Below are positions 17,664 to 41,861 of a DNA stretch of 64,000 nucleotides, in pieces; positions within the stretch are counted from its first letter, which is position 1, and every line of letters starts with the position of its first letter. Both the position numbers and the translations under genes were made by a program. The notes under the pieces are model-generated. The model was not told the origin of the DNA, searched no databases, and saw nothing but the letters and a program-made list of their open reading frames with translations. Source of the DNA: Acholoe squamosa (taxonomy: Eukaryota > Annelida > Polychaeta > Phyllodocida > Polynoidae); NCBI GenBank assembly GCA_949317995.1, contig OX439050.1, positions 50,035,777 through 50,099,776 of the forward strand. The letters are read 5' to 3'.

Positions 17664-17726
17664 GGTGACTGTCCACATGTAAATCACTGAATAATGTTAT
17701 CTTGCAAAGAGGGACACAGCATATGT

Positions 17727-17758: not shown

Positions 17759-17766
17759 AGTAGAAG

Positions 17767-18556: not shown

Positions 18557-19050
18557 TATGCCAAGCCAGCACTCCAACATATAGGCCTTAATTATCATAT
18601 ACGCCCAGTGGGGCCGCCATTGCTTGCTCTAGTACATGTGTAAGCACGGGTAATAGGCAGCCTGTTGGGGGGCAGTTCTTAAGTATCCAATAAATTCAGC
18701 AACGTATATGGGGAATTATTTGATTGGTTGAAAATGCATTTATTTTGCTTTCTCCTAAGCATGCAAAGTAACACAGCAACACCCATATACCCCGCCCTAT
18801 TTACACACTCTCCGACCTAAATACCCTCGACCCTTACTCACAGATGCCTACCCTCCAAATCGTCCAATTCATCCCCACTGCTTGCCTATACATTGTATAT
18901 ATAGCACTCCCCCTCTACTCACAACACACCATTCAGAGGTCACTGATACAGTTACCAAATAACCTTACATCACTACAACTTCCTCAAAGCTGTACAGTTC
19001 AACCAGAACAAAAATAGAGCTACTTATTCTACTTCCACATTCAATAGAGC

Positions 19051-20075
19051 CAAAATTATTTGCGGAGTTTTCTTAGATTATAGCATAGCATAAATAGTGA
19101 TCAGAACCATGATGGCGACAAACACTGGTTAACCTGACACAGTCCTATAGAATCTGCTATTGATAACACATAGCCCTACCATGGAATGTACCCTGAATCT
19201 CACTATTGTGTAGGTATGCGCTGTCACTAATAAAACTCTATTACCTATATAATTGAAGTTTATCAAAATATTAGCCACTGTTCTAGGTCTGATGCAAAGT
19301 CCTGCAATTTAATTCCCTCATCATATATCATTATGATTACTATAGATTGTCATATACATTTTGCCCAAAGTATCAAGGTAGGTATTGCATTCAGATTGAT
19401 TTTCCTCCTAGAGATCATAAAAAGTGGAAGGCATAAAAAGGGATTGTTTAGACATACATTGGCGATCAAGATTGTAAAACTAGTTAGCATAATGATTGAT
19501 TGTAACTGAGTGACCGTTGCATAATAGTTGTACTTGGACCCATGTCTGTCAACCTGTGAATGTGAGACCCATCATACATAATACAAATGTACTACAGTGA
19601 ACACAGTCCACACACTACACTGTACTTCAGATAATGTAAGTGTTGAGTCTAATAATGTCTATTTGTGCTGTAAAAGAAGCCTATGCCGATTATGTTTTGT
19701 CCAAAATATATAGGAAGATCTAAAAGGTATTCTGATAGGTTTAATACGGCAAAACTACCCCAATGTTTTATTTGGTTGTGCCACCTAGTGGCTGTGAATA
19801 GTATCAAATCCCTATAATTACCCTTGCTCATGTCGTGTCACGGTAACTAAGACACTTCAAAAAAACCAAAGTGTAGTGAATCTTAGTGCTATTTTAGGAA
19901 AAAAGCTGAAGGCTTGATAGTGATGAGTTAGGGCATATATACAAAAGGGAAATAAGCATATATCATGAGTAAAATTAGGTAGTTTCAATTATTGGCCACC
20001 CAGGTGGCGATGGCATAGATTGTGGCATATACCTTTAACAAACATGTCACAGACACATGGTTCTATTGCCCATGG
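19051..20075. other. Intergenic, duplicated, no gene seen
   Basis: Part of the segmental duplication, matching about 47905-48928. No frame with coding features. Confidence 0.6.
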
Positions 20076-20083
20076 CTCTTAGC

Positions 20084-22595
20084 CAGGGCTGGATTACTTC
20101 CCTGGCGAAAGGTATTTCTTCCGGGAGAAACCTATTTTGTCCGGTTTCTCCCAGGTTTCTTCCGGAGGAAATGGAAGGAACTGGAAGAAACTCAGAACAC
20201 TCTTGGAAAAAGGTATGTAGGCCATGACTTTTGCTAAATTCACCTGCTATGGTGAAGAGACAGACTGATGGGGATCTATGAGAGCAAGACCTGACATAAG
20301 AATACTAATTTTCGTGCGACTGTAACTCAATTGCTTTCAAAATTTGGATCAATTTAGGGTCTACAACGCCCCTTTCATAAGACCACTCCCATAGTGTTAA
20401 AGTGTTAGCTCTAGCCTAGATAAGTGTATTAAATGTGCTCCCCTGTTGAACTGATTCTTACCCTCAGACCATATCAAGCCAAAGCACCAATTCTAACACT
20501 CTAGATATCAAGTGATGATTTGGTATGCAATGGCTTCTACTTTGTAGTTTGTTCAGGGTAATAAGAAAAACAAGGTGGGGAATAGGTGAAAGAAATGGGT
20601 TGCATCTATATCAAAGCCAAAAATACTGGGGAAATGCCCACAATCAAAACATAAGCCCAAGCTCTAATAGGCAGCATTACAGGCGGCATAGGTATTCCTT
20701 TGTTTGTTTGTTTTTGTTTACATCTAGATGCCAGTTTCGCTTGAATGTCTCGGTATTTCCCGTGTGTCGCTAAGAACAATGGATTTCAGCATGCCGACTG
20801 TAATGCTGCCGCCCTGTACCACATAGTGGAGCCCTAGCTATAGTCAAGAATGGTATCACACAGTAGGTCATGGCTCGTTCTATACAGGTTAAGTACCCAG
20901 GGTTAATTACCAGACTATACTTTCAATATCTCTTTGGCTGTTCATCTTTCACTTCCAGTATCTTAACATATGTGAGGATTATCTAGCCTTTACTCAGAAA
21001 AGGGAAAAAAGACACAATTAAGAGATGATGGTCAGTTTTCAGACAAATGTGCCAAACAGATATTAATAGTATAGTCTGGTAATTAACTCAGGGTAATTAA
21101 CCTGAATAGAACAATTATACTTGATCTATTGTGAATAAAAGAAAGGGGTCACTATATATAGCTTCATCTACAGAAATAATATTTGACTCTGTGTTAATCA
21201 GAGCGAGGTATTATCAATTACATTCTGTACTAGGTTGCAGTTAAGTACATGACCTGACTATTGACCTGGCTGTTCATCTTTCACCTTAAGTCAGTATCTT
21301 AACATTTATGTGATGATTATCTAGCTTTTACTCAGAAAATGTGTCTTGTATCCACACTGAAAACCCGCCGCTATTGGAAAGTTATCATATATGACTTGTT
21401 TAGGGTCGTCAGAGGGTCGTCAGGCCTAACTCGTCATACTGACCACCTTGGCTTTACTCTTAGTTTGTCTGTTTATCCTAAGAGGGTATTACTCAAATAC
21501 ATTTGATAAGCCCTGTTGTGTATACAGGCTCATATCTATAAATTATACTTATTGTATGTTTTTTTTATGAATGGGGAATATAAGAATCATTTGATATAAA
21601 TTTACCAGGAAAGGATGGGAATGTCATAGTAGAAATTTAGAAAAGAAGATAGATCATTCTGGCAATGACAACTCTCTTATGGCTAGTGCTAGAGTAACAT
21701 AGATATTGAGAGTGCCTTAGATGAAATACATGTAAGTAGATAAGTGCCATCACACTGCACTACATAATGTTTGACTGGAACCCATAATAGTAGGTTTAGA
21801 ATAAACACTGATTGATGGATAAAGGGGATAAGATATATATATATCTGTAACCACAAAACAGGACTGTAAAGGGTGGCCATAGTGACGACCTTAGGTCGTC
21901 AGTGATGACCCAAGTTTGTCATCTATGAGGACCCCATGATGACCTAAAGCTGTAGATTTAGGTATCGTCAACCTGAGGACCTAAAGCCGTCAGTATTGAC
22001 GAGTTTTTGTTCCTGTAGGTTTTCAGTGCATAAAAACAAACAAGCAAATTTCAAACACTTCACAACACAGACATCTTCCCCCGAATTTAGTTTCTTCCAT
22101 CACATTATTTTGTACAACCTTCACAAGCTTATAAATACCTTACCACCAAATAGCTATTGAATTCAGTCCTCCCTTATTACAGGTATAAAGTCAGTTTAAG
22201 TCACTCTATCTTCACCAAAGCTATGTGCCTTGAATAAAAAAAGGGCACAGTTGAAGTTAGTCTCACTTTGGAAAGAACTAGAAATGTCATTTTGTCCAGG
22301 TCACAAAACAGACAATAATTATCCACCCATAATTTGGTTTCCTCCATCATGATTTTGAAAAACCAATAACTCCCCAACCTAGAGATATTGAAAGGATACT
22401 TCTGTAATTATCTTTATTACACTTTAATTGGTATATGGTGACATTTTGAGTTATATTCTAAATGTTTAGAGACATTTTTCCAGTTTCTTCCATTTCTACC
22501 ACTTTGAGACGGACAAAACCTATTTCTTCCAGACGTTTTTTCCACGGTTTTTACCATTTATTTTTTTGCCCTCTGGAAGAAACCTCCCAACCCTG
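20084..22595. mobile_element. hAT-like element, non-autonomous, B-unit copy
   Basis: Ends read CAGGGCTGGATTACTTCC on the left and, inverted, CAGGGTTGGGAGGTTTCTTC on the right. Both belong to the CAGGG-type termini of hAT transposons. The flanks give an 8-bp target repeat, CTCTTAGC at 20076-20083 and CTCTTAGT at 22596-22603, the hAT length. Subterminal TTTCTTCC/GGAAGAAA words recur in both orientations. No transposase frame is visible over 2.5 kb. The allelic copy in the other unit is at 48937-51492. Confidence 0.75.
20877..21112. repeat. Nested palindromic element, ~43-bp inverted arms
   Basis: Arm 20877-20919 (GTTCTATACAGGTTAAGTAC onward) is matched in reverse by 21070-21112 (inverted: GTTCTATTCAGGTTAATTAC onward, both ending CCAGACTATA). 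It lies inside the hAT-like element and is present in both duplicated units, so it is older than the duplication. Confidence 0.75.
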
Positions 22596-22802
22596 CTCTT
22601 AGTCTTAGCAATCGCTGCCTCTTGGATGAATAAAAATTTGTAGGAAAATTTTCTCTCTCCCCATTGTTTAGTGTTGATACCATTAATGTCTGTATTATCG
22701 ATTTATTTTGAGAATGAGAATGAAGTTCTTAATGAAAGTATTGCCATACATATGTAGCTATTGCTAAAACTCTACACTAGACTAAAGTGCTGGTAACCGC
22801 AG

Positions 22803-23320
22803 GTACCAGCAGGGATTATCAGTGATGTCCCACTAGAGGGCCGGTAGACCCTTAGTGCCATCTATATCGGTACACTTGAAGCAGAACTCTTTGTTTGTAG
22901 TGAGGAAAACAATTGTCCCATTGATTATACAAATAATGAAACATGTAAACACAATATTTTTATTTGATACAAAGACTATCAAAATATGCTTCAACATTAA
23001 AACCAGTACAGAGGTCCTCCACACCCGGTGTGTTGTTGATAGGCTAGACATCAGACGCCAAAAACAACTGGCAATCTTCATGTACAAGCAAGCCACAAAA
23101 CTGGGCCTAAGGGCCACTGAGACCCAAAGGACCAGAGGTGACACGAAAATAAACTCCCCCAGAAGAAACCAAACCTTGAAAAGTTCAAGAAAAGTCCTTA
23201 TTACAGGGGTGTCCAACTGTGGAACAGAATTGATTCCAGAGCCCAGAAAGCAAAGACTATCGCAGAATTTAAAACCTTATACAGCAAGTATAACCTTGCC
23301 CCAGTCTTAATTGGCTAACA
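22803..23320 (+). mobile_element. LINE 3' end (5'-truncated non-LTR retrotransposon), B-unit copy
   Basis: Encodes the tail of a non-LTR retrotransposon ORF2. In the partner copy the open frame reads through RRQKQLAIFMYKQATKLG and a YYRGVQLWNRID motif, the C-terminal segment typical of CR1/Jockey/RTE-like proteins. In this copy a one-base loss near 23153 shifts the frame, so the last third reads differently. No reverse transcriptase core is present. A 62-bp stretch just upstream (about 22743-22804) is missing from the partner. Confidence 0.65.
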
Positions 23321-24828
23321 GCTAAGAATTACACCATGAGTCAATGGGCTCCTGTCTTTGTTTTGCTGGTAATCATTGAATTGATCATAGCCGCCCATCA
23401 ACTCTGGTGATACACTATGCACTGGTAAGGATACAACTACATTGAAGTAAAGCAAACATATTTCATATTTCACTTTGCTTTGAGCTGACCTGACCTTCCT
23501 AAAGAGAGCTATTAATGCCCCATAGATGTAGAAAATGCCCACACCACTGGGAAAATAACTACCATTATCATCACACCTCCACTTCACCTTAACTCATCCA
23601 AATATCTCCTATCTCACTGTCTGGATGGCATCAGCAGTGCACACTTTTATCTTTATCCTACCAACCTCCTTCTCCTACTATTCTATATTATTTGAATTCT
23701 ATCTGCATGACAAAATTATATATTGAATGTAAACTCCAGGAATATACTGTGCCAAGATTTGATTGAGGAAATAAAGGTTCAGCAGCCACATAAAATCATG
23801 AAAATGATGTGGTGAAGCTGGAACAAAAATAAAAAAAAATAATAATGCTATCATAAAAAAAGAGGCACTGTTGATACTCAGTAATTGCCTTTGTACAAAT
23901 CTAATTGCATATCATATTTAACCCTGTACAGTATAGTACAGTAGAGTAGAGTATAACTTAATGTACTCTGTTATTTTATCATTACAACATACTAATGCAG
24001 TGTAACTAGAGAGAATCTGTCACTAGCCCAGGCTTGGGGCAGTTCTGTTTAGGACACTGTGGATATTTCTCAATTCAGTTTTGGAACTTAATAGAATTAA
24101 AATATAACCCCAACTCTTCATTATTATATCATGATGAATAATGACATGGTGGAGGCTAATGATGATGATGCATCAATACATTAGTGGCTCTTAAAGGGTT
24201 ATAACCCCTAGAGGGTCATGATGATGATATTTGGACATTCAGTACCTTCAAATTGCTTAGTAGTGCAAAATGTATATGGGTAATGCCAACAGGATTTAAT
24301 AGTTAATTCATCAATTTCAGTAGTATCAACATAGTTGACATACTGTGGTCATAGATATTTTCACTGGTATAAATTTTCACTGTAAGAGTAAATAATGCAT
24401 TTTCACTGGTCTTTAAATTTGTGTATTTGTGAAAATAAAAAGTGTGTTTTAGATAGAATATGAAGTAATAGTATAGGCCTATAAACAGCTCAAATACATC
24501 AGTAACTAGGATAAGTCAGACATTCACAGGTGGGTATGCCTCCATGTTGTTCAAAGCTGCTTTGCTACTAGTAGGAGATTGTGTGAAAAACAAAGGTGCA
24601 TACACATTACAAACATAAATTGTAAATCTAATTAAAGATTGATTAGTGTCATTTAAAACATTATATTTCAATGTTTTCTTGTTAGGTCTTTCCAATACAA
24701 CTTGATATAGGCTACATGAAACATGTTCTGTTGACCAAACCTTCCAAAGTGAATCCCAATTAACGTGTGTTGTGACAATATATAAGCTCCTTAATTTTTA
24801 GACGTAAATTCTGTGAAATCCGTGGAAA
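23321..24828. other. Intergenic 3' flank of ALP-B, no gene seen
   Basis: AT-rich and duplicated at 52171-53537 and 54527-54655. Probably holds the ALP-B 3' UTR and polyadenylation site, not placed. Confidence 0.5.
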
Positions 24829-24830
24829 TA

Positions 24831-24925
24831 CCCAGTGGGCACACAACATATATCAATGTTGATTCAATGTTGATCTTTGTTGATCAACAATATTTGAACA
24901 TTGATTCCACTATGTGCCCACTGGG
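24831..24925. mobile_element. 95-bp MITE with TA target duplication, forming the ALP-B 3' coding end
   Basis: Perfect 13-bp inverted ends CCCAGTGGGCACA are flanked by TA at 24829-24830 and 24926-24927. The other unit has the empty site, one TA at the matching place (near 54650), so the insertion and its duplication are seen directly. The interior has repeated AATGTTGAT words. No open frame of its own. It supplies the last 13 codons and the stop codon of ALP-B. Confidence 0.93.
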
Positions 24926-25242
24926 TATATATAGCGCGCAACTAAATATGACCACAGTAGCTACCACTGGTAGGGAAATAGCTGTGGAGTGCAGGCCTAC
25001 TGCAGCACTGGGCGATTCGGTAGGGGTAGGAGTAGGTTGCATGGTAGGAAGAGGGCCTTGACAGAGCCCCTGGTCTGGCCCCACACAGGAGGCATACATT
25101 AAGGCATGTGCTATATAATGCTGCTGGTGGACACCCTGGAAGAGGTAGGACATGGGACCCCGTGCATAGATAGCCACATCTTCCCCACCATGCGTCTCAT
25201 CATCTATCCTGATACCAGCATCAAACACATAGTCTGGGCCAG
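24884..25242 (-). CDS. alp: ALP-B exon 10, with transposon-coded C-terminus
   Basis: Carries GPDYVFDAG, the metal-ligand motif THGGED, a Thr/Pro/Ser-rich linker and a hydrophobic segment (LPVVATVVIFSCALYI). The ten-base overlap with the target site is followed by PSGHIVESMFKYC and a stop, all read from the MITE at 24831-24925. Without the MITE the frame would continue as in ALP-C. Confidence 0.9.
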
Positions 25243-28200
25243 CTGGAAGAGGAAACATGGCTAAGTACAAAATGTATGTAAAGGATGTTGTGATTATAAC
25301 TTTTTGGGTAATTAAATGATGTTATCACTATATAAAAGCACAGGTTGTTATACTTTTTTAAGTGTTTTAAGAAAAACAAATTAAAATAAATTTGAGGTGA
25401 GCTTGTACCCAGGTGTAGGGTATAACAGTCGATTTTCTTCATTGATCAACACCCTACAACAGCAAACCATTGATATCTTCCTCTCCAGCTAGTGAATCTT
25501 AAAAAGCCTGTTGCATGAAGGCAACATGCTATCTTTGAAGGGTTAGCTAATGCTTACTTGTGTCTACCCCTGTGAGGTTGGTCCTCTGTTTTAGTTTGCC
25601 TTCATCTGTCTCTCTGTGTACCTTGTTCCCTGGTCCATTAACATATTGTAGGGTAGTGTAGGGCATCTTGTCATATGGCTCCCAGGTACTCATATATGTG
25701 CCTAGCATACAAAGAACATGGGTATATCTATTTTAAATTTCAACAATTCATTCTTCATGTGTGTTTCCTTCACAACAGTCTTTTCTATCGAAAGAACTTC
25801 AAATCTAGCTTCCCCTTAATGTTTTTCTTGACTGTATTGTTAGACTAGGGGGAACCTTCATTAATTTTCTTATTATATACCCTAATGGGTTATCAGCACT
25901 GCAGTGGTGTTGCATTGCATTGTGAGCCCATTATGATTCCATTAACTCAATTGATACATTATGATGCTCTCAAACAGGTATGTCAAACTGGATAGTGCTT
26001 ACATTATATTTATCATCAATGATATGCCTACCTTAACATGCCCTTTCTTGGTGCTACAGGATATTTTTCCATTAAATAATCAATACTGTTGTACACTATG
26101 CCCCTTGGTTATTTATAATTTTTGTATGGGGATGATTAGTGCTGCTGGAGGGATTAGCAAAATGCTGTAATCCACTGCTGACAAAATCACTTTCCAGCAC
26201 TGTGTTTCTGCATCATGATGACAAAACAATTATTAATAATGATGTGGAGACCTACCCAGAATATTGTTGTCAATATTTGCATACCCGGCTATGTTAAACA
26301 CATGTGAGTGATCTGCTGTCACCACAACGAGAGTGTCCTCCTCATTTGTGAGATCCAAGGCTCTTTGGACAGCCTCGCCCAATGAGATAGTCTCATCCAG
26401 TGCCTTGAAGGGTAGGTTGGCATGGTGACCCTTGTCAATTAGGCCACCTTTAAAAGACATTTCAGAAAACAAAATAATGTCAGTGCATTGGCCTGCATCA
26501 GAGCTGGAGCTTTGAAAGAGGGCATCTTTAAGCACTATAACTCTTGAGAAAAAGTACTGGTTTTGAATTATCTCTGGGGGTACAGTCTGCTTGGAATCTT
26601 TGGGCACCCCACTGCTTATATACGGGTGCACACCTCTATATTTCTTCAAGTAGGCAGATCTTAACTACTCTTTTACCTTATCAGGGCATAGTTCATTTAA
26701 GCATTATGCATCCCTAAAGAGATAAAAGAAAGCTGTAACTGAAATTGAATTAACTCACCTTCTATAAACAGGAAGTAGCCCTTCTCTGAACGTTGCAGGA
26801 TATGTAGTGCCTTCTCCACCATCTCAGTCAGGGAGGGCTGTTCTGGGTAGTTCCCCCTCTCATGTTCATAAGCCATATGACTGTCAGAAAACAACCCTGA
26901 AGAAGATGAAAATAATAATTCATTTCCCTTTTTCCTTATGAAAATCCTAGGTCTACATGGAATTGATTGATCAAAATTGAATTACATTGGGTTCTCATCA
27001 GATTTTCTTTCTATGTACCATGACACCCATGTAAGTCATTCATGTGTGGTAAGTAAAATTTCATAATTCAGCTAACAATATGTGCAGGGTTTGTCCACTT
27101 ACCAAGTACATAGTCTGTTTTTTTTTCATTCAGACTCCTTAGTTCTTCAGCAGTTGTAATGTATTTGTAAGATTCCTTTGGCAGCTTTGCTTTTTTCCTT
27201 GCATCTAGCCATTCCTGTTCAATTATAAAAAGAAAGTCAGGCGCACATGCATGTCTATATTTGCATGGTCTATTATGGATCTGCTGTCATGATACACAGA
27301 TAAAGAATCAGTAATTCTGATCAAAATACATCTGTGCATGATGTTGACAGTTGGGTAGAGAATCCTGCCAAGGTTGGCATTTTGATAAATCCCAAATTCA
27401 GGATTAATGAAGTACCCAATACCATCTGCATTCATACCCTAGTCTACCAAAGGACATATTACACTGGATAAAGAATTAACCCTTTAAGGGCAGAGCAAAA
27501 ATTGTTGCCCTGGCCATGGGGACGGCCTCTGAAAAAAGTATAGTTCCTAGAGGACGAGCCTATTTTCAATTCCTATACTAATCCTTTATAACTGGCATCG
27601 ACTATAGTCGATGCCAGGCCTGCCATGGTGTCGACTATAGTGGATGCTAGGCCTACCATGGTGTCGACTATAGTTGATGCTAGCCCTCAATGGGTTAAGA
27701 GAAAAGTAAAATGTCCATTGATACTGTCTGATTGGACACAATTAATTGATAGCTCAGTCTATGAAATGCTCAGCAATACTGTGTGCACTAACCTTTGTAA
27801 TATCCCTTTCATCCAGCCTATCCCCTTTTGTACATTTGCCTGCCTGTTTGACACAAGGATATAGTTTATTACGCCCTCCACCAAGGATGACCTGCAAGGT
27901 TAACAAAAGCATGCAGGGAGATTTTTTTATCAAATCTCTCATTTGCCTTATTATAATATAACTGGCATAATCTTTTCACAATTAGGACATCAATACTTAA
28001 GACACTTTTGCAATAACCGTCAGAAGATTGTTCTCATTTCTAATGCTAAGGGGTCGGATTTTGCAGTATGATGCAACTTTTAAGAATCTAACTGATTTAC
28101 ATCATTCTTGACTAAGTCAAATGAACAGAGGATAATTTTAGAGAGAACTGGAATGTACAGCTTCAGGAGCATTTAACACATCATTTGGGTTTAAGTAAAA

Positions 28201-31200
28201 TAAACAATAGCTAAACAAGCAATGCAATAGATAGACATGTTTTCTGTACCCTTTGAAGATATAGAAGTTAAAATGATTTGCAAAATTGTGGTAAATTTCA
28301 GATAATGATGAAGAGAAACCATAATCATCACTGTGAGATTGAAAGCCAGATATGAACTAACAATAGAATATAAGTATATCCTTACCTTAATGCCTAGGTT
28401 ATCTTCTTCCACCAATTGTTGTGCTATGTCAGTGCACTTTTCAGGCTCAATATTTGTGTCTGGGATGTTGGCCTCCCCATTCCGGTCTACACTGTGTGCA
28501 TAAACAGCAGAGGGACTTGCATGCGTCACTCTCATGTTGGTCACCAAGCCTGTCCATTTCCCTGCAAAAGTACCAGGTTAAAATGAAAAGCAAATTTCAC
28601 ACATTTCATGATAATGCCACTAAATTCCTCCATCATGACAACAAAGTGTCATAACTCATCAAACAGGTATGTGTCCTGCATGGGTTAAGACAGTATTTTA
28701 TAAAACGTTGTCAAGAGGAGACTTGTGAAGTAAACCTTATACAACCAAAAGCAGCGAACCACTCCCCAAAATTGTTAATAGTCAGAATTGGAGTAGACTG
28801 GTGAATATTGACTATAAAGTTAAAATAGACTTACCTGCATCCATGGACTGTTTGACTACTGATCTGAGTTTGGCCTCCTCGGACAGAGCTGAACAGTTAT
28901 ATAGAGGTACGGAGTCCTTGACACCCACAGTGTAGAAGTTCGCCTTCTCCCCACACAATATGGCTGTAGCTGCCCCTGCCAAGTCTGCTATCTGACGGTC
29001 TGATGTGTGTGTCTGGAAAATTGGAAAATGGAGTCGATGAAGAAAGGATGGCTTAGGGTTTCATTTTCTCAAGTAATTCCAATGTGCCTTTCCAATCAAT
29101 CTCGTTCTGTAATGTTCATCAAGTTTGTTTCTTACGTCCCTATGCCCGGTTATCTCAGTTTCTCTATTTTTTGTTTAAAAGTTTGGTTTTTATAGCCCTC
29201 TCCAGCAATAGCAAGATTGCTGGAAATTCTAGGGCTACTCTTTAGAGATAAAATGGAACTATAGACATTATACTGGACATAATGTAATTGCTGGACAGAT
29301 CAGAACCCAACAGTTGGTACCTCAACCTCCCAGTTGTGATCATTATCATCAACCATTTTAGCATGAAATGCTATTTTCAGGTAGGTTCTTTGCATCTTGT
29401 ACTTTCACAGCAGGGTATCAACCATGCATTACAATGTCATCATGACTTTCCAAAAATATTACTCTCTGTTGTAAAGCCATTCTTATCTAAAAATGTGACC
29501 CTGTGTTGGAGATCAAAAGACATGTCAGAGAGTCATTTTGACATTATTTCAACATCTTGGCCACATTTAGGTCAGTCTGGCATCCTAAACTTTCTCCTAA
29601 ATTCAAATCTCTAAATCTAAGGAAATTATACTGAGGGGCCTGTTTGGTGATATATCCTGGCATGTGTATATCACAGAATACTGGTACCTTAGGTAGCAGA
29701 GACACTTAGTGTGCATGCAGGCGGACACATAGGGTGCTAGGACATGTAGGGTGCAAACCACAGGACATTCAGGGTGCAAGGACATATAGGGTGCAACAGT
29801 AGGACATGTAGGGTGCAAAATAAAACTGGTTAAGAGTTCCTGGGCCCATGGCAGCACTATGGTTTGCCACTTTAAAGGGTCATAAAACATGTAGCAACAC
29901 ATAACCATTTATATAGGCACAAAAAATTATTCATGTAATCAGTGAGACAGACTCTTAATCATCTAAACTGCCAAATATCTTCATATAAACCACACCTGGA
30001 ATTTAGGAGTAAGATTAGCCTAAGCTACAAGAAGATTCTGATTTGCCTGAAATCCCCAGTTTATATGCATGAATTTATGGAAGGTAGACATGGAGTCAAA
30101 CTGCGGAATTATTAGGGGCCAAATGGTACCCATCTGATAGATATTATCAGTGATAACATGCTAGAAACCAGCTCCAGAAATGGCTGCACCCATTGTACAA
30201 CCCGCAACGTCATTTTGAGCACTGGGGGAGTTTATCTTGATGATAAAGTAGGCAATGTAGGGGCCGGTATCGTTGTATATATATACTAGTGCGGATCATC
30301 CGAGAGATGTGCTCGTGTCTTGCTTGTTCCTTCTATGCCAACCAGGTGTCGCTTCAAGATACCCATTTGGTACATGAGGGGGTAGCACCATGCCTCGCAT
30401 CCAGCTCCTACTAAGGAGCCGGACGATCCGCAGAAGGGGACTGGACCTCGTCCAGTCCACACGCGTTACCAGACCTTCTGAGTGAGCTGAACAATAAAGT
30501 CCATCTGAACAGATGAAGGATTGAGGGCTTTGCCCAACCCGAACCTTTCGTGTTGTGTTAATACCTATAGCCACTAAGCGAGCCTAAGAGCCACCCATAC
30601 ATAATGAAGGAACCACTACACTGATGCTGTGACCAGTTGGGTTGGGGGTGGAGTGCGGCCAGACGGCCGAAGGCCGCGGAAGACGGGATGCAAGTTCTTC
30701 AAGCTTAGGGCTGGAAGAATTCAAAGAGGATGGCATAGCCTCTCAGCAATTGTTGCTTGACTGGGAACCGGGTCGACAGTTCCTGATCGACTCGGCTGGT
30801 GTACAGAGAACATTCTCAACACCCAGTACAATGACCGAACCCAACATAATTGGGGATGGGGTCATGAAAGTATACCCGGGTACCACTAGCCACACGGCCT
30901 CAGATACCAGTTTGTTGGGTGGGTTGATCAAACCTGCTTGGTTGGATTTGAGCCATTTGTCTCAGGTAATAACCAGTAGACGCGAATTAGAATTGGGTAA
31001 TTCTGGAGGCGCCTCTAGTGTTTTAAAGACTCTGAAAGCCCAAAGTCCTATACAAAGGACAGGAACGCCAATCGTTGCATTAAAGTCAACCGAGGATAGG
31101 GTACCAAAAGGAACCCGAGTAGGGGGAGATCAACCCTTAATGACATCGTCAGATCACGAAAGCGATCAGGACGATAGAGGGGATGGTAAACACAATAGTG

Positions 31201-34200
31201 TTGAGACAGACGACGTTAATAACGGGTCTGTTCTAACCCGACCAGATATCAATCATACTACACTACCGAAAACCGCAGAAGTGTATACGCTGGGATAATC
31301 CTTAGATGAGGCTTTATCAGACTCAGTATTCAACCGGGGGGAGCCGTAAATCCAAACATGGTCGTCGGAAGGGCCCTGGATATAAGTCGACTACGGCTTA
31401 TCTCAAAGCCAGAGAGCAGGTAGAGCTACAAGCTAAGAAGCAACATGAAGCATTCATGGCTGCTCAGAAGAAAATTGAGAATGAGACCCGGGAATGAATC
31501 AGTAAACTTTGTTCTGTAGAACAGGAGGTGATTCTGAAAGAGTCCGATCTAAAGTACAGACTTTCCTCTCTAGCCCATAGAGTGCAATTGCAATCGACGG
31601 ACGAGAGGGGAAGGGAAAGTAAATTGGCAGAACTCGAAAAAGAGGAAGCTAATAGGGGGAGAGCAATTGATAAAGCTAGATCCAAGGAGGTTGCGAAAGC
31701 TCGGGATGTAAATAGACAGGCCAAGTTAAATGCAATGGAGGAGAAATTGAAGAAACTCCAATTACGTAAAGTTGAGCCGGAATCTAAGCTTGTCAGTGAA
31801 CAAGACGAGGTCTGTAGGGAAATGACTGAGTATCGGAGATCTCAGAAAGGAAAGAATGAAAAGTATCTGATGTTAAAAGATACTTTGAAAAAGGGAGGCA
31901 CAAGCTGCTCAACAAGAATGAAACCGACCCTTTGAGGACAATGAAAAGATTCGATCCAAAATCTTGTCTGAAAACGCTCAGTTACAGGAGGAACAGAGGA
32001 ATCTAACAACTGATGTTGCGACTCTGACTCTAAATAAGTCCGCTATGGAAAGCTACTTGCAGGAGAAGGAGAAGATAAATCCTCCTCCAGTGGGCTCAGA
32101 CCCGAGTCCGGATTGGACCTTTGTTAAACAGGGTGACTTCGGTACCTGTTCAAAGACGATACAACTTACGAGCGCCTACAATCCATTTGTGAATGACAAT
32201 GCCACTCGTAATGTGGATCAGGAAGGGGTCTATGTCAGAACCCAGGATCCAAATGGTAGAACTAGTAGGGTCCATATCAGAGAAGTTCCAATTGTCCATA
32301 ACTTGGACCCGGACTTCGTCCAAAGGGACAACTCGGATGCAAGTGCTGAGACTAGCGGGTTCCACATAAATGTGCATCAAGCCAGGACTGTCGGGTTGGA
32401 CACTGGCAACCCGGCCGCTTCACAAAGTGCGCAAGGTGGAGGCCAGCAAAGTCAAGCAGGGGGCATGCCTAATGCTGGCAGACACAATGGCACTGCCTAT
32501 ACAAGCAGTCAGGGGGTGAGTGGTACCTCAGGTACTACACCCAATGGACAAAGTAGCGGAGGTGGAAACACGGGGGCTGGACAGTCTCAGTGAGGCTATA
32601 TTCAAGCGCCCCCACCACCACGGAATAACAGTAGTTTTGGTGGATTGGGAGGCAATCGAACCTTGAATGAAACCAAGGTGATTGAATGGAGCAAACAACA
32701 GTGTTTAAGACTGACATATGCTCACAACTCAGCCAGGAGGGTAGCATTGTAATGGTTGGACGCCATACGAGGCGAAGCAACATTTAGTTAGATGCCTGAA
32801 GGCTGGCCCGGGTCGCATGGCCGTGGAGCAATGTCACACATGGTACGGCTTAGTAGGAAGCTTTGAGCAGTTAGTAGAAACTGCTAGTGGGCTGTTGTGG
32901 AACATGGTCAAGGAGGATCCAATGGTTTGTTTTACCTCATGGTATGGAGCTCCACGCTCTACTGAGTAAGGCCAGACCCGGGACAGAAAACCAAGACTGG
33001 TATATGGACGATTTGATAACACAATTCATCAAGGGGTTGAGAGACCCAGACATGCAGTTGGCTGCAAAAGACACCTGGAAGGAAGGATCCACGTTGCACG
33101 GCATGTTTAATGGTATAGATATGGCTGTGAAGAAATGAACCATGTTAGCAGGGGATGTACCTAACGTATCAGGTCACACCCCCATAGCCACTGCGCTACA
33201 TCGACCCAAGGAGACCAACAACTCGGATGACTTTGAGTTATATGAAATTGAGCAGGAGGATGGTACTTTCTTGCGCAATGCAATTTAAGAGAAACACCTC
33301 CGGTAGGAAACACATTCCTAGGAAGGTGTTTAATAAGTCAAAGGATACAAAGACAGTACCTGAGGCTTCAAGTGTGCCCAGAGCTAATGGCAAAATAGCA
33401 GCAAAGTCAGTTGATAACGTATCGAAGACAAGTGGTCAGTTACAAGACATGACAAAGGTAATGGAAGAAATGTGCAAGAAGATAACTGAAGCATGACAAG
33501 CCAGTCAGTCTAGACCCAGAGTGGATCGCCGAACTGTAAAATGGGGCACTACTCATCTGAGTGTACTGCTGCAAAACCAGTTATGGCAGCTTACTATGAA
33601 GCTGAAGACGATTCTAAAGAAAGACTGCAGGATGCACTAGCAGCAGATATTGTGGAAAATTAGAGGGGGTTGTATCCACGGCATTGGGTATAGCCCCATC
33701 TAGAAATGAATGCCAAAACACTACCGGGGGTAAACCGGTGGAAGAATTAGGATCAGATTTACCTGGAGGTCAGGTGACTATGGGTGCGCATCCCAGCATA
33801 CTGACCTGGGCCAGGGACCCTAGTGCAGAAATACAGACAAATGGGCGAATGGCCACACTGGGGGAGAGGAAGGATGGATTAAGGAGTTGATCCAATGTGT
33901 GGGACATGCCTTCCCCGAAGTCATCCTTGTCTGGAGTTTTTAAGAGGACTCGGATTGAATCTTGGTGATTCTGGAGACTTTCATCAGTTTACCAGCAACC
34001 CATCCCCATTGGGAGGGAGACGGTGGTATATATACCCGTAACTGTGGAAGGTCGGGTAGGAGAATTCTTAGTGGATACTGGAGCTAGCCATTCCTGTGTG
34101 TCCAAAAGGTTCTTCGACTTGATGGCCAGCAGTCATGAAAACCTCAAAACGGGGGTAAATGCTTGCACGGCCAACGGAAGCAGTATGAAGACTTTTGGGA

Positions 34201-37200
34201 GAACTTTTATGCCTATCCTTATAGGAGGTAAAGAATTTGTTCTTTCGCCTACTATAGCAGAGGTTACTGACGATGGAATCCTTGGGTTGGATTTTGCAAG
34301 CCTATATGGGGCAATGTTGGATCTGAGGGATGGGATGATGAGCATTCAGAACCCCTATGGCTTGCATGTACAGTGTGTATTGAGACAAGTGTCTTCAGTA
34401 GCCTCTGTTATACATACGGTGAAAATCCCTCCGGGTACCACTTGTGATGTCCTGTGTGGCGGATCAATGGGCCAAAAGGGTGAGATGGGTGAGTTTTTGA
34501 ACCCGACACGATATATTTATCGAGCTTCGGGTTAGACTCAGTGGATACGTTAGTGGCGAATGCAGCATGGTCTGTATTACCCATGACTAACCGAACTGGT
34601 TTGGTGGTTTACTTAAAATGAGGTGACGGTGTAGGGGTGATGAGTTCAGTGGAACATGTCACTGAAGCCGAGTTTAAGAAAGCATTAAAACCTGTTAGTA
34701 AGCATCCTTTGGATAAAGAATTTAAGAAACTGATAGATAAATCAGATTTGAAGGATGAAGAGGATAAAAGGCAACTAGGGGAACTCCTCCGAAGGTATGA
34801 GAATGCCTTCGGTACGGATGGAGGACCCATAGGTAGGACCGATAAGGTGTTACACACTATTGATGTGGGTGACCAGAGACCTTTTAAAATTCCGTATAGC
34901 AGAATTCCTCTGAAGAAGAAGTTAATATGCAAACAGGAAATACAAAAACAGCTGGAGCTAGGGGTAATCGTGCCAAGCACGAGCCCTTGGTCCAGCCCTG
35001 TATGTATGACCACAAAGAAATACAGTACTATCCGTTTCTGTATCAATTACTGGAAACTAAATGGAATGACAAAGAAAAACTTGTATCCCCTACCAAGGAA
35101 AGACGAGACTTTAGTTAGCTTGGGTGGGAACCAATGGTTCTGTACCCTAGACCTTCAATCCGGGTATTGGCAAATACCGATGCACCCTAAGGACAAAGAG
35201 AAAACCACATTCTCTAGTCACTTGGGATCGTTCGAGTATGTGTAACACACCAGCTACGTTTGAGGCTATGATGGAATAACTGGTCAGCGACTTGTTGTGG
35301 AAAAAATGTTTGGTTTACTTGGATGATGTTGTCGTGTTCGGCAAGTCATTCAAGAAATAACAAGCTAATCTGCAATTGGTCCTGGATAGGATTCTAGCAA
35401 ATGGCCTCAAACTCAAGCCTAAGAAGTGTAATTTGTTAAAGAAAACAATAACATCCTTAGGAAGAATTATTACCCCCGATGGGGTAAGTGCGGACCCGGA
35501 GAAGCTGGAAGCTGTGGAGAATTGGGAGAGGCCTATGTGTGCTAAGGAGGTCAGATCATTTTTAGGATTTTGTTCCTTTTACCATGATTTTATATCAAAT
35601 TACTCCCGTGCGAACTTTCCTATGCAATGCTTAGTCCATTGGACACCCGGTAGGGCTCGGGAACCCTTTCCATGGACCAATGAGCAGGAAGAATCTTTTG
35701 ATAAAATAAAAGATTTGTTTAGAAACACACCGATATTGAAATATCCCACACCCGAGGGACATTTCATACTAGACACCGATGCTAGCATTAATGCCATAGG
35801 GGCCGCTCTCTCTCAGGTCCAGAATGGAGTTGAAGTCCCATTAGCATTCGCTAGTAACACGTTGAGCGAGACACAGCATAATTATTGTACCACAAAAAGG
35901 GAACTATTAGCGGTAGTGGTGTATACGAAGAAGTATAAGCATTTCCTTTGGGGGTGTCAACGGACGGTTACAAGTGGTGAAGTGAATGTACACGGAATCC
36001 TGAGAAGTTCATTTGATCCTTTTATTGCATAGCTGACATGAGTGTTTCATAAAAGTGGTAACAATGATAACACTTGCCAATATCTAAGCTCTGCCTCCGA
36101 TCCTATAGCTCAACCTGTCGTAGGTTCTAGGTATAGGTGTAAGGTGTAAATTGGGAGAGATGATTGGGAGCTGCTCAAGCTGCCTTTTATATTAAGGGCT
36201 TGAGCAGCTCACAGTATTGCGAAATATTCTATACACGTGGCTCAATAAAATAGAGACACGTGTCATAGGGAGAGATTGCCACCTGTGGGTTAATCATGTT
36301 GATGAGGATTGAGAGGAGATTGTGAAATATCCTCTCAGCGGGGCTGTGTGGGTGTAGAAATGATTGGAATGTTATTACATCCGTGTACCTTATGTCACAG
36401 AGTCTCATGGAGGAAGTGGGTTTGTGATAACTTGTGGATCCTGGTTCTTGTTGGGGAATACAGGAGGTTGTTGAGTGTGGATCGTGAGCAGAGCCTAGGT
36501 TTTATATGGCGAAGAAATTAGTAAATATGAAAAATGATTATAATACCCAGAATGGTCCATTGACAGGGGACTGACTTTACTTTGCGAACAGACCATTCAT
36601 CCCTAAGGTGGCTTCTTAACTTTAAGGACACTGAGGGGATGATTGGATGATGGTTAGCTCAACTATCTGAACATATCTACACAAATGTGTTTTTACCCAA
36701 CCCTTAAGAAGTTAAAAGAACACAATTCTATTATTGCCTCCCCCCATCTATGACATTATTTCATCTTCACAAATGTGGTTTCCTCCCCACCCCCACCCTT
36801 AAGAAAAAAAAAAACATAATTCTATGAGTGCCCCCCCCCCATCTATGACATGTAAGATAATTTGTAGGTAGATGGAGCATATATATATAGACTGACTTGC
36901 ATTTTTCACCCTGCACCCTACCTGTCCTTTTTATGCACCCTAAGTGTCTGCTACCTAAGTGTCCTCGCACTCTACATGTCTGCACCCTAAGTGTCCTCGC
37001 ACCCTAAGATACCTGTTACCATCTCACACATAAGCCACAGGTCCACCCTTGCGAAATGGTGCTAAATTATCATTTCATGGCCATGTTGCATGCAAACAGG
37101 TTAAGCGAGGTACGTGGAAATGCATGCATAATGGACATTAAATACCTTCTATGGAAGATTTTTTTGTTTTCACTGAGAGACATGTTTGTAATCCGGGGCT

Positions 37201-38961
37201 ATAAGCTCCAATTAGGATAAACTTAATTGAATTGCATGTAGGTTACCTACCTTGGAAATTCCTGTGACAGGAAAAGTCTCAAAGCTGAGTTTTGTTTCCG
37301 TGACAGGTTTCTTCCTTTGCTGTGCAAGTAGAAAGCGTGCAGCTGTTACGTCCGAGGGCCCCATGCCATCACCGAGGAACACAATGACATTTTTAGCCAC
37401 CCCCACCTTGGGGAAGTTATAGATAGATGACTTGAGTTCATCCTGTGCCAGCTTCACCCAGTTAATACCTTGATTGATGCCTTGACCTGCTAACAGGATG
37501 AATCATTTTTACATCCTATCAGTGCCTCTGATAATATTCTCCACCCTAATCATTGTACGTATTAAGCCCAGACAGGAAATGGTCAATCTAGAGAGCCTGA
37601 AGTGGTGTCAACTCTCTCTTATGTGATTACATTTATGTCTATACCGAGGTAGCGCATTGTCCAATGGGCGTGGCCATTGCTGAAGCCTGTTACCGGCACT
37701 TATCACTGATAGCAGTTATCAGATAGGTACCACCCCCCCCGAGAGGCCTGCGGTGATTCTTTCATTTACTGATAATCCATCCCGCTAATTCGGTATATTA
37801 AAGTGGTCACATCAGTGATCATATAAGAAAGAGTGTAGACATGTCCTAGTAGTATATGAATTTTCTGTTAGACTAAACTGGAAATATCTTAGCTTATTAC
37901 ACGATTTCTTGGATTTTGGGTGCTTTTTCTGGATATCCCCATGCTGATACCTGTCAATATTGCACACCATGATGCATGCATCATGACTTTTGTAAGGTGT
38001 GCCTGATATCCATGGATAACAGGCACTAGTGCCTGATATCCATGGATATCAGCACACCTTACATGTCATATGTCACATGTTAAAACCCACGAAATAGTCC
38101 AGGCCAGGGTAGGGATCGAACCTGCAGTCAAAAAATCCCAAATCCAACTCCCTATGCATTGCGCCACAGGGACTGACAAGATACGCTCTGTTCGAACCAC
38201 GTCGGATATATACAAAGCCCTGGAAGGAGACGACTGCGGGCTGACCGCTACCATAACCGCGGGACACATTCAAAAATAGCCAAGCCGACACGGCCACTGC
38301 AGGAGGAGACGCGGTGGTCTAGCGGTTAGCGCTTTGCGCTCAGCCGTGAGAGGTACATGGATCGAGCCCCGGTCCGGGCGCTTCTTTTTTCGCCGTGTGC
38401 GCTGTCGCTGTCCGCTGCCGGGGGAGGAGGTGTATTCTACACAAACATAACCGCGAGACGCATTCAAAGCCTAGCTGTCCGCTGCCGGGCGACGAGATGT
38501 ATGTACACTATTTTTCGCCGTGTGCCGCCGCCGCCAAGCCTAGCCGAGACGGGGGCTGTCGCTGTCCGCTGCCGGGCGAGGAGGTGTATGTACCGATCGT
38601 GTACACACAATGGCTCGCTTCGAGTCCCGGGGAAGGATTTTTGTTTTCAACTTGTTTGTATTGATATTCTATTGATTATTTATTGATTTTTTATTGATTA
38701 ATCGTGTAATAAAGACAGTAAGGAATGGGCTATCGGGCACCTCGTTCAGTGTATCGTAGGATATCGTAACTTGTGGCCTACGGCCACTCGTTACAATATC
38801 CTACGATACACTGAACTTGGTGCCTGATAGCCCATTCATTACTCTCTTACTAGTAAATGCCAGTATAGTTGAGGAGTCCAATATGACTTACGTGGTAATT
38901 GCTTTGTGTTCCCAGCACCCAGGAGGCAGATGAGAATAATAAGGCATATAGATAACTTCAT
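24884..38961 (-). CDS. alp: Alkaline phosphatase B (ten coding exons, nucleophile Ser reads Leu)
   Basis: Paralog of ALP-A, nearly identical to ALP-C. Exons, 5' to 3' on the minus strand: 38892-38961, 37251-37489, 28835-29012, 28386-28561, 27793-27891, 27103-27214, 26759-26896, 26256-26447, 25558-25701, 24884-25242. GT-AG junctions and phases agree, giving 1707 nt and 568 aa with no internal stop. Signal peptide begins MKLSICLIILICLLGAG. Metal-site motifs FLGDGMG, HASP, IDKGHH, TADHSH and THGGED are all kept. The nucleophile motif reads ADLAGAA in place of ADSAGAA (codon 28980-28982, TTG; the partner has TCG). The C-terminal tail after the hydrophobic segment is MITE-derived. Intron 2 is 8.2 kb and holds nested elements. 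With the frame fully open and one active-site change, it is either a recent pseudoenzyme or a gene at the start of decay. Confidence 0.88.
27480..27694. mobile_element. 215-bp piggyBac-type MITE with TTAA target, in ALP-B intron 5
   Basis: Flanked by TTAA at 27476-27479 and 27695-27698. The other unit has a single TTAA at the matching site (near 57206). Ends CCCTTTAAGGGC and, inverted, CCCATTGAGGGC fit piggyBac-like termini. Inside are three ~33-bp tandem units, each holding a palindrome of the GCATCGACTATAGTCGATGC kind. piggyBac elements can leave without a scar, so absence from C could be either non-insertion or excision. Confidence 0.9.
28835..29012 (-). CDS. alp: ALP-B exon 3, active-site exon with Ser114 to Leu
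   Basis: Reads THTSDRQIADLAGAATAILC, whereas ALP-A has ADSAGAA and ALP-C ADSAGAA. The codon at 28980-28982 is TTG; ALP-C has TCG, a CpG, so one C-to-T transition explains the change. The rest of the exon is unaltered relative to ALP-C and keeps its splice sites. Confidence 0.93.
30256..30620 (+). repeat. 5' LTR of the B-unit Gypsy element
   Basis: 365 bp beginning TGTAGGGGCCGG and ending CCACTACA, similar throughout to 59497-59852 and 61692-62054. Contains an AATAAAGT signal. The sequence just after it is the presumed primer-binding site. Confidence 0.92.
30256..36032 (+). mobile_element. Ty3/Gypsy LTR retrotransposon, broken, B-unit copy
   Basis: Fossil element. The 5' LTR is 30256-30620, TG...CA. 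A gag-like region with a long charged coiled coil (31.3-31.9 kb) and a Gly/Gln-rich stretch (32.4-32.6 kb) is followed by an aspartic protease with DTGAS (34.0-34.5 kb), reverse transcriptase (34.6-35.4 kb) and RNase H with DTDAS (35.7-36.0 kb). No integrase and no 3' LTR were recognised on this copy. It is broken, with on the order of ten interruptions. The left flank GGCAA equals that of the C-unit copy, so it inserted before the segmental duplication. Confidence 0.9.
36033..36671. other. Unassigned segment after the B-unit Gypsy body
   Basis: Present in B and absent from C. Holds a hairpin with perfect 13-bp arms (GAGCTGCTCAAGC at 36168-36180 and its inverse at 36198-36210). It may be further element sequence or another insertion. 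No domain seen. Confidence 0.4.
36672..37816. repeat. Segmental duplication, B unit, distal part
   Basis: Matches 62521-63669, including ALP exon 2 and its flanks. Similarity stops at CACATCAGT in both; beyond it the C unit has unrelated sequence and then an AT microsatellite. Confidence 0.92.
37992..38062. repeat. Palindrome, ~35-bp arms, in ALP-B intron 1
   Basis: GTAAGGTGTGCCTGATATCC through CAGGCAC is followed by its near-exact inverse, ending CAGCACACCTTAC. The central TAGT acts as the loop. No coding sense. Confidence 0.85.
38103..38174 (-). repeat. tRNA-like sequence, SINE head or tRNA pseudogene
   Basis: The minus strand begins GTCCCTGTGGCGCAATG, resembling the start of arginine tRNAs, with a B box GGTTCGATCCC at the expected spacing. 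The anticodon arm does not pair cleanly, so I do not call a functional tRNA. Confidence 0.55.
38311..38632 (+). repeat. tRNA-derived SINE-like block with internal GC-rich tandem units
   Basis: The head has an A-box-like GTGGTCTAGCGGTTAGCGC and a B-box-like GGATCGAGCCC. It is followed by three units of CTGTCCGCTGCCGGG plus a GAGGTGTATGTAC tail (about 38409, 38477 and 38564), and a final TTCGAGTCCCGGGG. GC content is far above the surroundings. Confidence 0.5.
38724..38836. repeat. Hairpin MITE, ~48-bp arms, in ALP-B intron 1
   Basis: AATGGGCTATCGGGCACC and, further in, GTTCAGTGTATCGTAGGATA are matched by exact inverses on the right side. The loop is GTGGCCTACGGCCAC, itself a small palindrome. 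It ends about 55 bp from exon 1. Confidence 0.85.
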
Positions 38962-39019
38962 GGTTACTGTACGCAGGTAAATCTCTGAATGAAGTGCTAT
39001 CTTTGTAAGATAGGTATAT

Positions 39020-39051
39020 GACACCTGCAGGTATAGGGGTATAGCTGGTCA
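39020..39051 (-). promoter_or_regulatory. Conserved block upstream of the ALP-B start
   Basis: Matches 17727-17758 upstream of ALP-A, at nearly the same distance from the ATG (about 59 versus 64 bp). Shares ACACCT, GGTATAGGGG and CTGGTCA. Confidence 0.4.
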
Positions 39052-39279
39052 TGGATCATGTACCTAGCAAAAGTGGAGCATTCCTAAAGTCAAGGCTCCA
39101 CCAAATCAATATTGCACTGTAAAAAATAACTTGAATCTACCAGGGATCCTCGTAAAACTGAACCTTTGACCACTGTATTTGTAAAGCATCGAACCAGTGT
39201 AGATGACCTCTGGCAACTTTGGGGCGAGGAATGCGCCATTATTTTGACGACATTTCTTTTACAGTGTGGCTGTTGCACC

Positions 39280-39857
39280 CGGGGGGGGGCCACTTGAGGA
39301 AATTTGGAAACCATGTGCGTACAAAAAGTAGAGGGAAAGGGGGTACCTTATGGGCCCTAGGAGCGGACCCGCCTTGACCCATTAAAAGGGGTCCTTTTGG
39401 GCCCAAATTGGGCAAAAAGGGGTACCCTTTTTGAGGGCTTTCTAATGGTGAAAGAATTTTTGAAATATTCCAACTAGAACCAAAGTTAGGGTTTTAATAT
39501 CAACGGGCCATGTATTCCCAATTTTTTGAAGCAAATTTGTCAAAAATTTGCTGGAAAGGGGTACGTTTTTGCCCGGAAATTTTCTAAATCTGGCCGGGAA
39601 AGGGGTATCTTTTTCAGAAAAATCTCAAGGTATGCCTATAAAAGGGGTACACTTAATGAAAATATTACGTTGAAGGGGTGCCAAAATTGAGGCTTTGTCT
39701 CTTTAGATTCTAATAGCAGGGAAAGGGGTACTTTTTCAAAGTAATCCCCGTTAAAAGGGGTATAAATTTAGGGAAAATGGCCCCTCTATATGGGTCTCAA
39801 ATTTGGGGTGATGTACGCACATGGTTACTATAGAAAAGATACAGAGTGGCCCCCCCC
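39280..39857. mobile_element. 578-bp element with G-run ends and AAGGGGTAC repeats
   Basis: The ends CGGGGGGGGGCCACTT and, inverted, GGGGGGGCCACTCT are inverted repeats. An exact 12-bp direct repeat GGCTGTTGCACC flanks it (39268-39279 and 39858-39869). Inside, the word AAGGGGTAC or a close variant occurs about nine times in one orientation, spaced irregularly. No open frame. Family not recognised. Confidence 0.75.
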
Positions 39858-40020
39858 GGCTGTTGCACCACAAGGCGCCCTTTCTTGTTAAACTACACAA
39901 GGATATGATATAGCCGCATCCATGTATCTTTTAGGATCTCAAATCTCATCTCGTACTTTTTTAAAATGCAAACAACCATTTAGTGAGTGTGGGCTTTTAG
40001 TGATCCTCAAAACTGTGTCC

Positions 40021-40213
40021 ATGCTCTATTTGGTGCTACTTATAAGTAAAACGAGGCAGGTCGTCGTAAATAAAGATAAAGATATCTATGCTCTATTTGG
40101 TGCTACTTATAAGTAAAACGAGGCAGGTCCTCGTAAATAAAGATAAAGATATCTATGCTCTATTTGGTGCTACTTATAAGTAAAACGAGGCAGGTCCTCG
40201 TAAATAAAGATAT
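40021..40213. repeat. Minisatellite, 67-bp unit, ~2.9 copies
   Basis: Units start at 40021, 40088 and 40155 with ATGCTCTATTTGGTGCTACT. The only difference noticed between units is GTCGTCG versus GTCCTCG plus the shortened last unit, so the expansion is recent. Confidence 0.95.
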
Positions 40214-41861
40214 CTTACACTGCCTAGTATAAAAATGTACTCTGGTAAATGGACAAAATTGGAGAAATGATTCACAAAGATTTCCTCTCACTGCAAGTAA
40301 GCTCGCTGGCCCCTCCCCGTTTTTGTTTGTTTGTTTTAGTTTGTTGATGTTTCTTCGTGTTTTTGTTTTCTTCTTGTTTCCTTTTTGTGTGCTGTTGTTG
40401 CTGTTGTTGTTGTTGTGTTACTGTTTTTGTGTGCCCCCTTTCCTCAATTGCTTTTAAAATGCAGTAGACACTAAAATCAAAACAACCCTCGCCCCACCAA
40501 GATAACAAGGATGTATCAAAGGAGACGGAAATGCAAAGGCTATTGACATATTCTGCTGAATAGACACCTTTTTTGCTATTATTTTATTTCTCTTCATTAG
40601 GGAAATATTCTTTCCAGAGAAATGACTCAGCAAAACTATTGATACGAAATGGGATGGCGGTAAACACTGGGTGATCCATGACAGTACTATATTGAACTGT
40701 TAACTGATAACACACATTTACGTCTATACCATGGAACGTCGTCAAGTATATAATTAGTCAATAATCTGACTGATAAAACTATCGCTTAATTACTGTTAAA
40801 TTGGCCTGTAACTAATTCCGCTACCCTAATATGTAATCTAAGTCTATGAAAATAAGAGATCCTGTTCTAGCCAATGAACTCAGTTGTTTAGGCTAATAGT
40901 AAGACTAAGGGTAGGCCTATAATTCTTAGTCTTTTTTTAACAAATGGATCTACATTTTTGCTATATAAAAGGCTCAGGGAGCCAAATTTTCTTCTTTTTT
41001 TTATTCCTGTGAAAGAGACACAAAAGTGGCAATAACGATATAGATTCAAAAATGACGTAAGCTAGCAATAGTACAACAAGTGCATGTAGGGTTATTTCTA
41101 ATTATTACACCTTTTGCATGTAACTCAAGAGGCCATTTCTTAAGGCACTACGATCGCACACAGCACTGTCAATGTTTTTTTTTCCTATGGGAATGTTGGT
41201 ACGACTAGGAAGGTGCAGTCGTAGCCTGTTAAGAAATAGCCTTTCTGGCAGCATTGCATCAGAAAAGCACATTGTACCTGGATCTTCCAGCCCATGACCC
41301 CCTCTGTCTGTTTGTGTGGGACATATCGACCAATGTCCACAGTACACACAATACAGTATTACTTGCATCATCCCACTTTGTGTTGCGTTTTATCATGTTG
41401 TTCACAAACAATTGATTAATGTATGAAATACTGATTTTATCATTTTAATGATAATTATCATCAAATCAATTTACAAAAGGTAAAATCGTCAAAATCATTC
41501 CAAAGAGAGGAAATTATTATGGGAAAATTCTGTATTGTATCAGTATATTGCAGCCGAAAATCTGTCACCTTTGGACGCCTCCCTGTGAAGTAAAACATAT
41601 TTTCTGTAAATACAGAGATGAATATATAGACAGAGGTTCACAAATTCTACTCCAAACTGAGTGTTTCTTCATGAGATAGTCTCAACGCAGTATTCCACGA
41701 GGCAGAGCTGAGTGGAATACTGCTAAGATTCAAGAGAAAACCAGAGATATGTCCTCAAAAATTACTTTTTGATGTGGGGTTTGAGGCTATTTCGACCCAC
41801 CACAGTGGAGAATGGAGCCATGGAGAATGAGACTTTTCTTCATACCCCTGTGAGGAATATG
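40214..41861. other. Non-coding stretch, no gene seen
   Basis: Includes GTT-rich low-complexity DNA near 40318-40420, which gives a spurious polyglutamine frame on the minus strand, and a similar short frame at 41105-41371 with no recognisable features. Confidence 0.5.

Follow-up and report, generated by a model that had tools for sequence, protein, structure and literature searches.

One of two tandemly duplicated alkaline phosphatase genes of Acholoe squamosa encodes leucine at the nucleophilic serine position

Replacement of the nucleophilic serine of alkaline phosphatase (ALP) has been described for Ser102 of the Escherichia coli enzyme, and the residual activity of such mutants is disputed. 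In the accessible part of one source, S102L and S102A are cited as 400- to 1000-fold slower than the wild type yet active, and S102L as capable of transphosphorylation (PMC8938923). In the accessible part of another, the activity of S102G and S102A is given as not detectable, Pi binding as tighter by at least 1000-fold in S102G and at least 10000-fold in S102A, and phosphate as not released in 100 h from the nucleophile-less (Gly, Ala) enzyme; the title of its Text S1 attributes the observed activity of Ser102 mutants to likely contamination with the wild-type enzyme (PMC3699461). For human TNAP, the excerpt available from a study of hypophosphatasia reports dominant negative effects of severe alleles (PMC2702372); an inactive subunit could therefore have consequences for a dimer in which it takes part. 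In the literature searched, no ALP pseudoenzyme appeared in titles and abstract openings, and the one further lead was to a silent Ser110 variant.

We analysed a stretch of 64,000 nucleotides from the polynoid annelid Acholoe squamosa (hereafter the window; contig OX439050.1, positions 50,035,777 to 50,099,776 of the forward strand). It carries ALP-A and ALP-B and most of ALP-C, all on the minus strand. An earlier note, made from the letters of the window, had described ALP-B as an open, correctly spliced frame with every metal ligand kept and leucine at the nucleophile position. The gene consists of 10 exons, from 38961 to 24884 on the minus strand; every internal splice site is GT/AG, and the spliced frame stays open over 567 codons. 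Its parts are as follows (window numbering).

38892..38961, minus strand: ALP-B exon 1, signal peptide MKLSICLIILICLLGAGNTKQLP
37251..37486, minus strand: ALP-B exon 2, with D63 (PLAP D42 position) within FLGDGMG
28835..29012, minus strand: ALP-B exon 3, the active-site exon with S113L
28980..28982, minus strand: ALP-B nucleophile codon TTG, precursor residue Leu113 (equivalent to PLAP Ser92 and E. coli Ser102)
28386..28561, minus strand: ALP-B exon 4, PLAP H153, S155 and R166 positions kept
27793..27891, minus strand: ALP-B exon 5
27103..27214, minus strand: ALP-B exon 6
26759..26896, minus strand: ALP-B exon 7, PLAP E311 position near the exon end
26256..26447, minus strand: ALP-B exon 8, PLAP D316, H320, D357, H358 and H360 positions kept
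25558..25701, minus strand: ALP-B exon 9
24884..25242, minus strand: ALP-B exon 10 up to the stop codon, PLAP H432 position kept, C-terminus altered by a MITE-like insertion

The product matched the Pfam family PF00245 with 418.5 bits over profile positions 1-422 of 423 (cut-off 24.4), next to 422.4 bits for ALP-C and 417.6 for ALP-A, and its best PDB match was TNAP 7yiv (E 1.7e-109). By these matches ALP-B is an alkaline phosphatase by descent. The expected residue was found at 13 of the 14 positions tested, the nucleophile being the sole exception; D63, H175, S177, R188, E336, D341, H345, D382, H383, H385 and H466 are kept, so that the residues predicted to form two zinc sites and a magnesium site are present together with the phosphate-binding Arg, in agreement with the earlier note. 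The roles of these positions are given in PLAP numbering, those of the D428/E429 gatekeepers after PMC11677397. ALP-B also retains its signal peptide and, close to the C-terminus, a hydrophobic stretch; it has lost the N284 sequon of A and C. No frameshift or stop codon was found in ALP-B before its tail. Given the 567 open codons and the GT/AG internal splice sites, we rejected the possibility that ALP-B is a pseudogene with frameshifts or faulty splicing. A stretch of about 580 bp that precedes the ALP-B start codon on its upstream side (39279-39858) is missing at the corresponding place of ALP-C; this difference could affect expression of B.

The plus strand reads CAA at 28980-28982, giving the minus-strand codon TTG (Leu) in the context ...DRQIADLAGAATAILCG..., within an exon that is in frame and bounded by AG and GT. 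The nucleophile motif is ADLAGAA in ALP-B and ADSAGAA in both ALP-A and ALP-C. ALP-B thus lacks the Ser nucleophile in a D-S-A motif that marks an active ALP. Alignment to human TNAP places VPDSAGTATAYLCG against IADLAGAATAILCG at the active site. The corresponding codon is TCG in ALP-C (GAC TCG GCA; exon 58407-58230, minus strand) and TCA in ALP-A (GAT TCA GCA; exon 13663-13486, minus strand), and the Leu change is therefore assigned to the B lineage. Most simply, the ancestor of B and C would have had TCG, and TTG would be a single C-to-T change at a CpG in the B lineage. The substitution and its one-step origin from TCG at a CpG were both anticipated in the earlier note, and both were confirmed.

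Many ALP loci are present in the genome (1.48 Gb in 63 contigs, the window lying on contig 16, of 65 Mb). Its COX1 agrees with the invertebrate mitochondrial code and resembles that of annelids, and the mitogenome measures 15.6 kb. Genome-wide, we found at least 19 active-site exons, a lower bound as the search scored best candidates only: 14 by protein search (ALP-B included), 3 from Pfam hits and 2 on contig 1. Ser is encoded in 18 of the 19 and Leu only in ALP-B; the count covers exons and not the intactness of genes, the exon at C1:85.17 Mb having stop codons nearby. The idea that Leu is common to other members of the family was rejected on this count. Two loci, C2:80.83 and C1:85.17, are blank at the nucleophile position in our residue table, and their exons read DSAGT and ESAGT; an apparent 'I' at that position in the C1:85.18 Mb locus was a tblastn over-extension, the exon itself reading ESAGT. 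Seven ALP active-site exons have ESA instead of DSA at the motif, at C16:49.48-49.52 Mb, C2:103.42 Mb and C1:85.17-85.18 Mb (L047, L048, L050, L052, L054, L024, L025). Both C1 loci show Gly at the H153 position in the residue table, which may be an alignment effect.

Self-comparison of 94 kb, reaching past the window end, identified ALP-B and ALP-C as daughters of a recent head-to-tail duplication of about 30 kb.

12177..43619, no strand assigned: first unit of the tandem duplication
43621 to 72540 (window numbering; ends past the window), no strand assigned: second unit of the tandem duplication
54582..63349, minus strand: ALP-C exons 2-10, the Ser-bearing recent duplicate of B, 576 aa
67914-67983 (window numbering; beyond the window end), minus strand: ALP-C exon 1
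7560..17663, minus strand: ALP-A, the older Ser paralog, 554 aa, by which changes were polarised
43621..44314, minus strand: relic of another copy of ALP-A, comprising exon 4, a part of exon 5 and flanking sequence

The duplication is defined to the base at its left edge, junction and right edge, a single extra base lying at the junction; no N or gap was found there or across the 94 kb examined. Head-to-tail units with such a gap-free junction have, as judged from the sequence, the character of tandem duplicates. The ALP-A relic is 97.6-97.8% identical to parts of 12177-13260. Mobile elements were also seen in both units. At 44588-47659, in the second unit and not in the first, lies a DIRS-like element with split direct repeats, a reverse transcriptase ORF (PF00078) and a tyrosine recombinase ORF (PF00589). 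Intron 2 of ALP-B contains LTR-retroelement remnants (30098-36032) with aspartyl protease and RNase H domains and a reverse transcriptase match that falls just below the cut-off. A homologous piece is present in ALP-C (59339-62054), and the single ORF scanned in it gave no family match.

B and C share 548 ungapped codons ahead of the tail, in which 24 bases differ, 17 of the differences being nonsynonymous (N) and 7 synonymous (S); the expectation without selection, weighted by the noncoding transition bias, is 17.2 to 6.8 (binomial p = 1.0). Omega was 0.16 for A/B (0.11-0.21) and 0.16 for A/C (0.12-0.21). In the B/C comparison, which the earlier note had proposed, it was 0.73, a neutral ratio with a bootstrap interval of 0.33-2.27; however, not one indel was found in the compared coding blocks of the pair. 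In very young pairs, omega is raised by unpurged polymorphism. Polarised with A and counted by codon, the changes were 4N:2S in B and 7N:2S in C by script, and 6N:2S and 9N:3S when five codons were assigned by hand (113 and 186 to B; 3, 195 and 97 to C) and codons 24 and 550 were left out. Both daughters are loose, B (about 6N:2S) and C alike.

Relative to the 47 indels in 14004 noncoding sites, about 5.5 were expected in the 1644 bp of coding sequence and none was found (P about 0.004), the count excluding the ALP-A blocks, the MITE in the coding tail of B and larger insertions between the compared blocks. Coding divergence (1.46%) was also lower than the noncoding divergence of 2.14% (300 of 14004 sites in the compared blocks; Poisson P 0.03, Fisher P 0.067). 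The zero coding indels and lower coding divergence indicate that the pair was somewhat constrained for much of its history. B and C were probably functional for much of their short life, S113L having come later. That ALP-B has no stop codon is uninformative (P = 0.49).

The last coding exon of ALP-B contains an insertion that is absent from ALP-C.

24831..24925, no strand assigned: palindromic MITE-like insertion, 95 bp, in the last ALP-B coding exon, supplying the stop codon of B

Its edges, judged by eye, fit a TA target duplication, and its family has the ends CCCAGTGGGCAC. Full-length (95 bases) matches at 83% identity or more were found at 24 genomic places, that in B counted; the search listed 65 rows, in many of which a palindrome was simply matched again on its other strand. 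After the hydrophobic stretch, the insertion replaces the last 22 residues of C with 13 others in B, and it affects only the ALP-B tail beyond residue 554. The tail past the hydrophobic stretch has 15 residues in ALP-B versus 4 in ALP-A; the ends of C (54582-54652) and B (24884-24945) both extend beyond the ALP-A end (KLMH, stop). The earlier note had named excess disabling changes elsewhere in ALP-B, together with absent transcripts, as a refuting outcome; the frame has no lesion before the tail, and the MITE alters the C-terminus.

ALP-C ends in a basic tail, PRISRNLRLKIKELIYCHNTR, after its hydrophobic stretch, which by its residues seems to resemble a type I membrane anchor more than a GPI signal. 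Two further substitutions were seen in ALP-C: D374E, at a position that is Asp in A, B and TNAP, and E464A at the PLAP E429 gatekeeper position. Human isozymes carry E, G, S or H at this gatekeeper in the accessible part of PMC11677397, and on account of this variation E464A counts for less as a mark of damage. Carrying both substitutions, ALP-C might also have altered properties.

With the serine gone, the phosphoseryl intermediate could not form in ALP-B. The protein, if made, probably folds and binds metal, to judge from its residues; it would bind zinc and magnesium and dimerise, and its phosphatase activity would be nil or about one-thousandth of normal. The earlier note had held the normal route to be blocked; this stands for the serine route, whereas total loss of activity is disputed for the E. 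coli mutants in the accessible parts of the two sources (PMC8938923 versus PMC3699461). By analogy with S102G and S102A, ALP-B, if made, may bind phosphate tightly: with the metals and Arg188 in place and no serine alkoxide, phosphate would perhaps be held far more tightly than in a normal ALP. The leucine side chain might, on the other hand, crowd the site and prevent such binding.

Early loss of function is, in our judgement and with moderate confidence, the most likely explanation, ALP-B being a young and redundant copy, under relaxed constraint and now without its nucleophile. We favour this reading because the duplicate is young, the ratio is neutral in both daughters, the change is a single CpG transition and a MITE lies in the last coding exon. 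ALP-B arose as one daughter when an animal membrane-type ALP gene was recently duplicated in tandem, and under relaxed constraint on the pair a CpG transition in B would then have changed the nucleophile Ser to Leu. Of the two readings offered in the earlier note, a gene just starting to decay thus fits the tandem duplicates, the neutral ratio and the MITE better than a pseudoenzyme does. A selected pseudoenzyme, binding phosphate or phosphoesters with no turnover as a secreted or membrane-anchored trap or sensor, or acting as a dimer partner tuning A or C, is improbable. The full-length frame with its metal ligands and Arg188, the indel-free coding blocks of the pair, the retained signal peptide and C-terminal hydrophobic stretch, and the failure of E. 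coli ALP with Gly or Ala to release phosphate in 100 h (PMC3699461, accessible part) are all in its favour; but the substitutions in B show no constraint peculiar to it, being about as loose as those in C, its key change is one transition at a CpG, the MITE rewrote its C-terminus, and leucine exceeds the measured Gly and Ala in size and may block the pocket. The B/C substitution comparison gave no sign of selection for an inactive form. We put slightly less trust again in the proposal that ALP-B is a natural nucleophile-less ALP that traps extracellular phosphate almost irreversibly or inhibits its active twin by dimerising with it, and in which one CpG transition would have removed the destabilising serine alkoxide and left the metal site in place.

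More weight than a selected function is due to the possibility that TTG is a null allele of ALP-B still segregating in the source population, or a base-call error, though we consider this unlikely too. Only one genome was examined, and CpG transitions are frequent here (52 of 183 noncoding B/C transitions); against this, no homopolymer or simple repeat lies at the codon, and the contigs are chromosome-scale, with no N across the 94 kb. The noncoding divergence of 2.14% between B and C lies in the range that haplotypes of outbred marine invertebrates can show. B and C could accordingly be alleles of a single gene that the assembler set head to tail, and the layout of the units would look identical; the gap-free, base-precise junction with its one extra base led us to set this aside as the main reading, and the exon search turned up no other near-identical copy in the 63 contigs (only A, B and C exceeded 46% identity), which makes such a haplotypic false duplication very unlikely. 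Least credible of all is a slow phosphatase or phosphotransferase in which metal-bound water or alcohol attacks the phosphate directly. The transphosphorylation cited for E. coli S102L and the rates cited for S102L and S102A, 400- to 1000-fold below the wild type (PMC8938923, accessible part), would allow it; the accessible part of PMC3699461, however, reports no detectable activity for the Gly and Ala mutants and, in the title of Text S1, blames contamination, and a thousandfold loss alongside other Ser-bearing ALPs would hardly matter.

The B/C tandem duplication, the ALP-A relic, the neutral B/C ratio and the MITE within the final coding exon of B are newly described here. The anatomy of ALP-B is real and the substitution is unusual. 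If fixed and expressed, ALP-B would provide a natural equivalent to the E. coli Ser102 mutants, adjoined by a Ser-bearing near-twin, ALP-C, as control, and would illustrate how a single CpG change can uncouple ligand binding from turnover in a metalloenzyme. Otherwise, it would be a clean case in which a tandem duplicate lost its active site ahead of its reading frame.

Among known systems, ALP-B resembles dead duplicate paralogs (pseudoenzymes) in having an open frame that no longer encodes the catalytic residue; the dead paralog of trypanosomatid deoxyhypusine synthase has a demonstrated role, according to the accessible part of PMC3663545, whereas any role of ALP-B is hypothetical. Like the animal ALPs (PF00245; human TNAP and PLAP), it is full-length and has a signal peptide, a hydrophobic stretch, the metal ligands and the phosphate-binding Arg, but its nucleophile is Leu and not Ser. 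The E. coli Ser102 mutants (S102G, S102A and S102L) are laboratory-made forms of a bacterial enzyme, and phosphate affinity is given for Gly and Ala, not Leu, in the accessible part of PMC3699461; ALP-B is altered at the same position as these mutants, and S102L carries the identical replacement (PMC8938923, accessible part).
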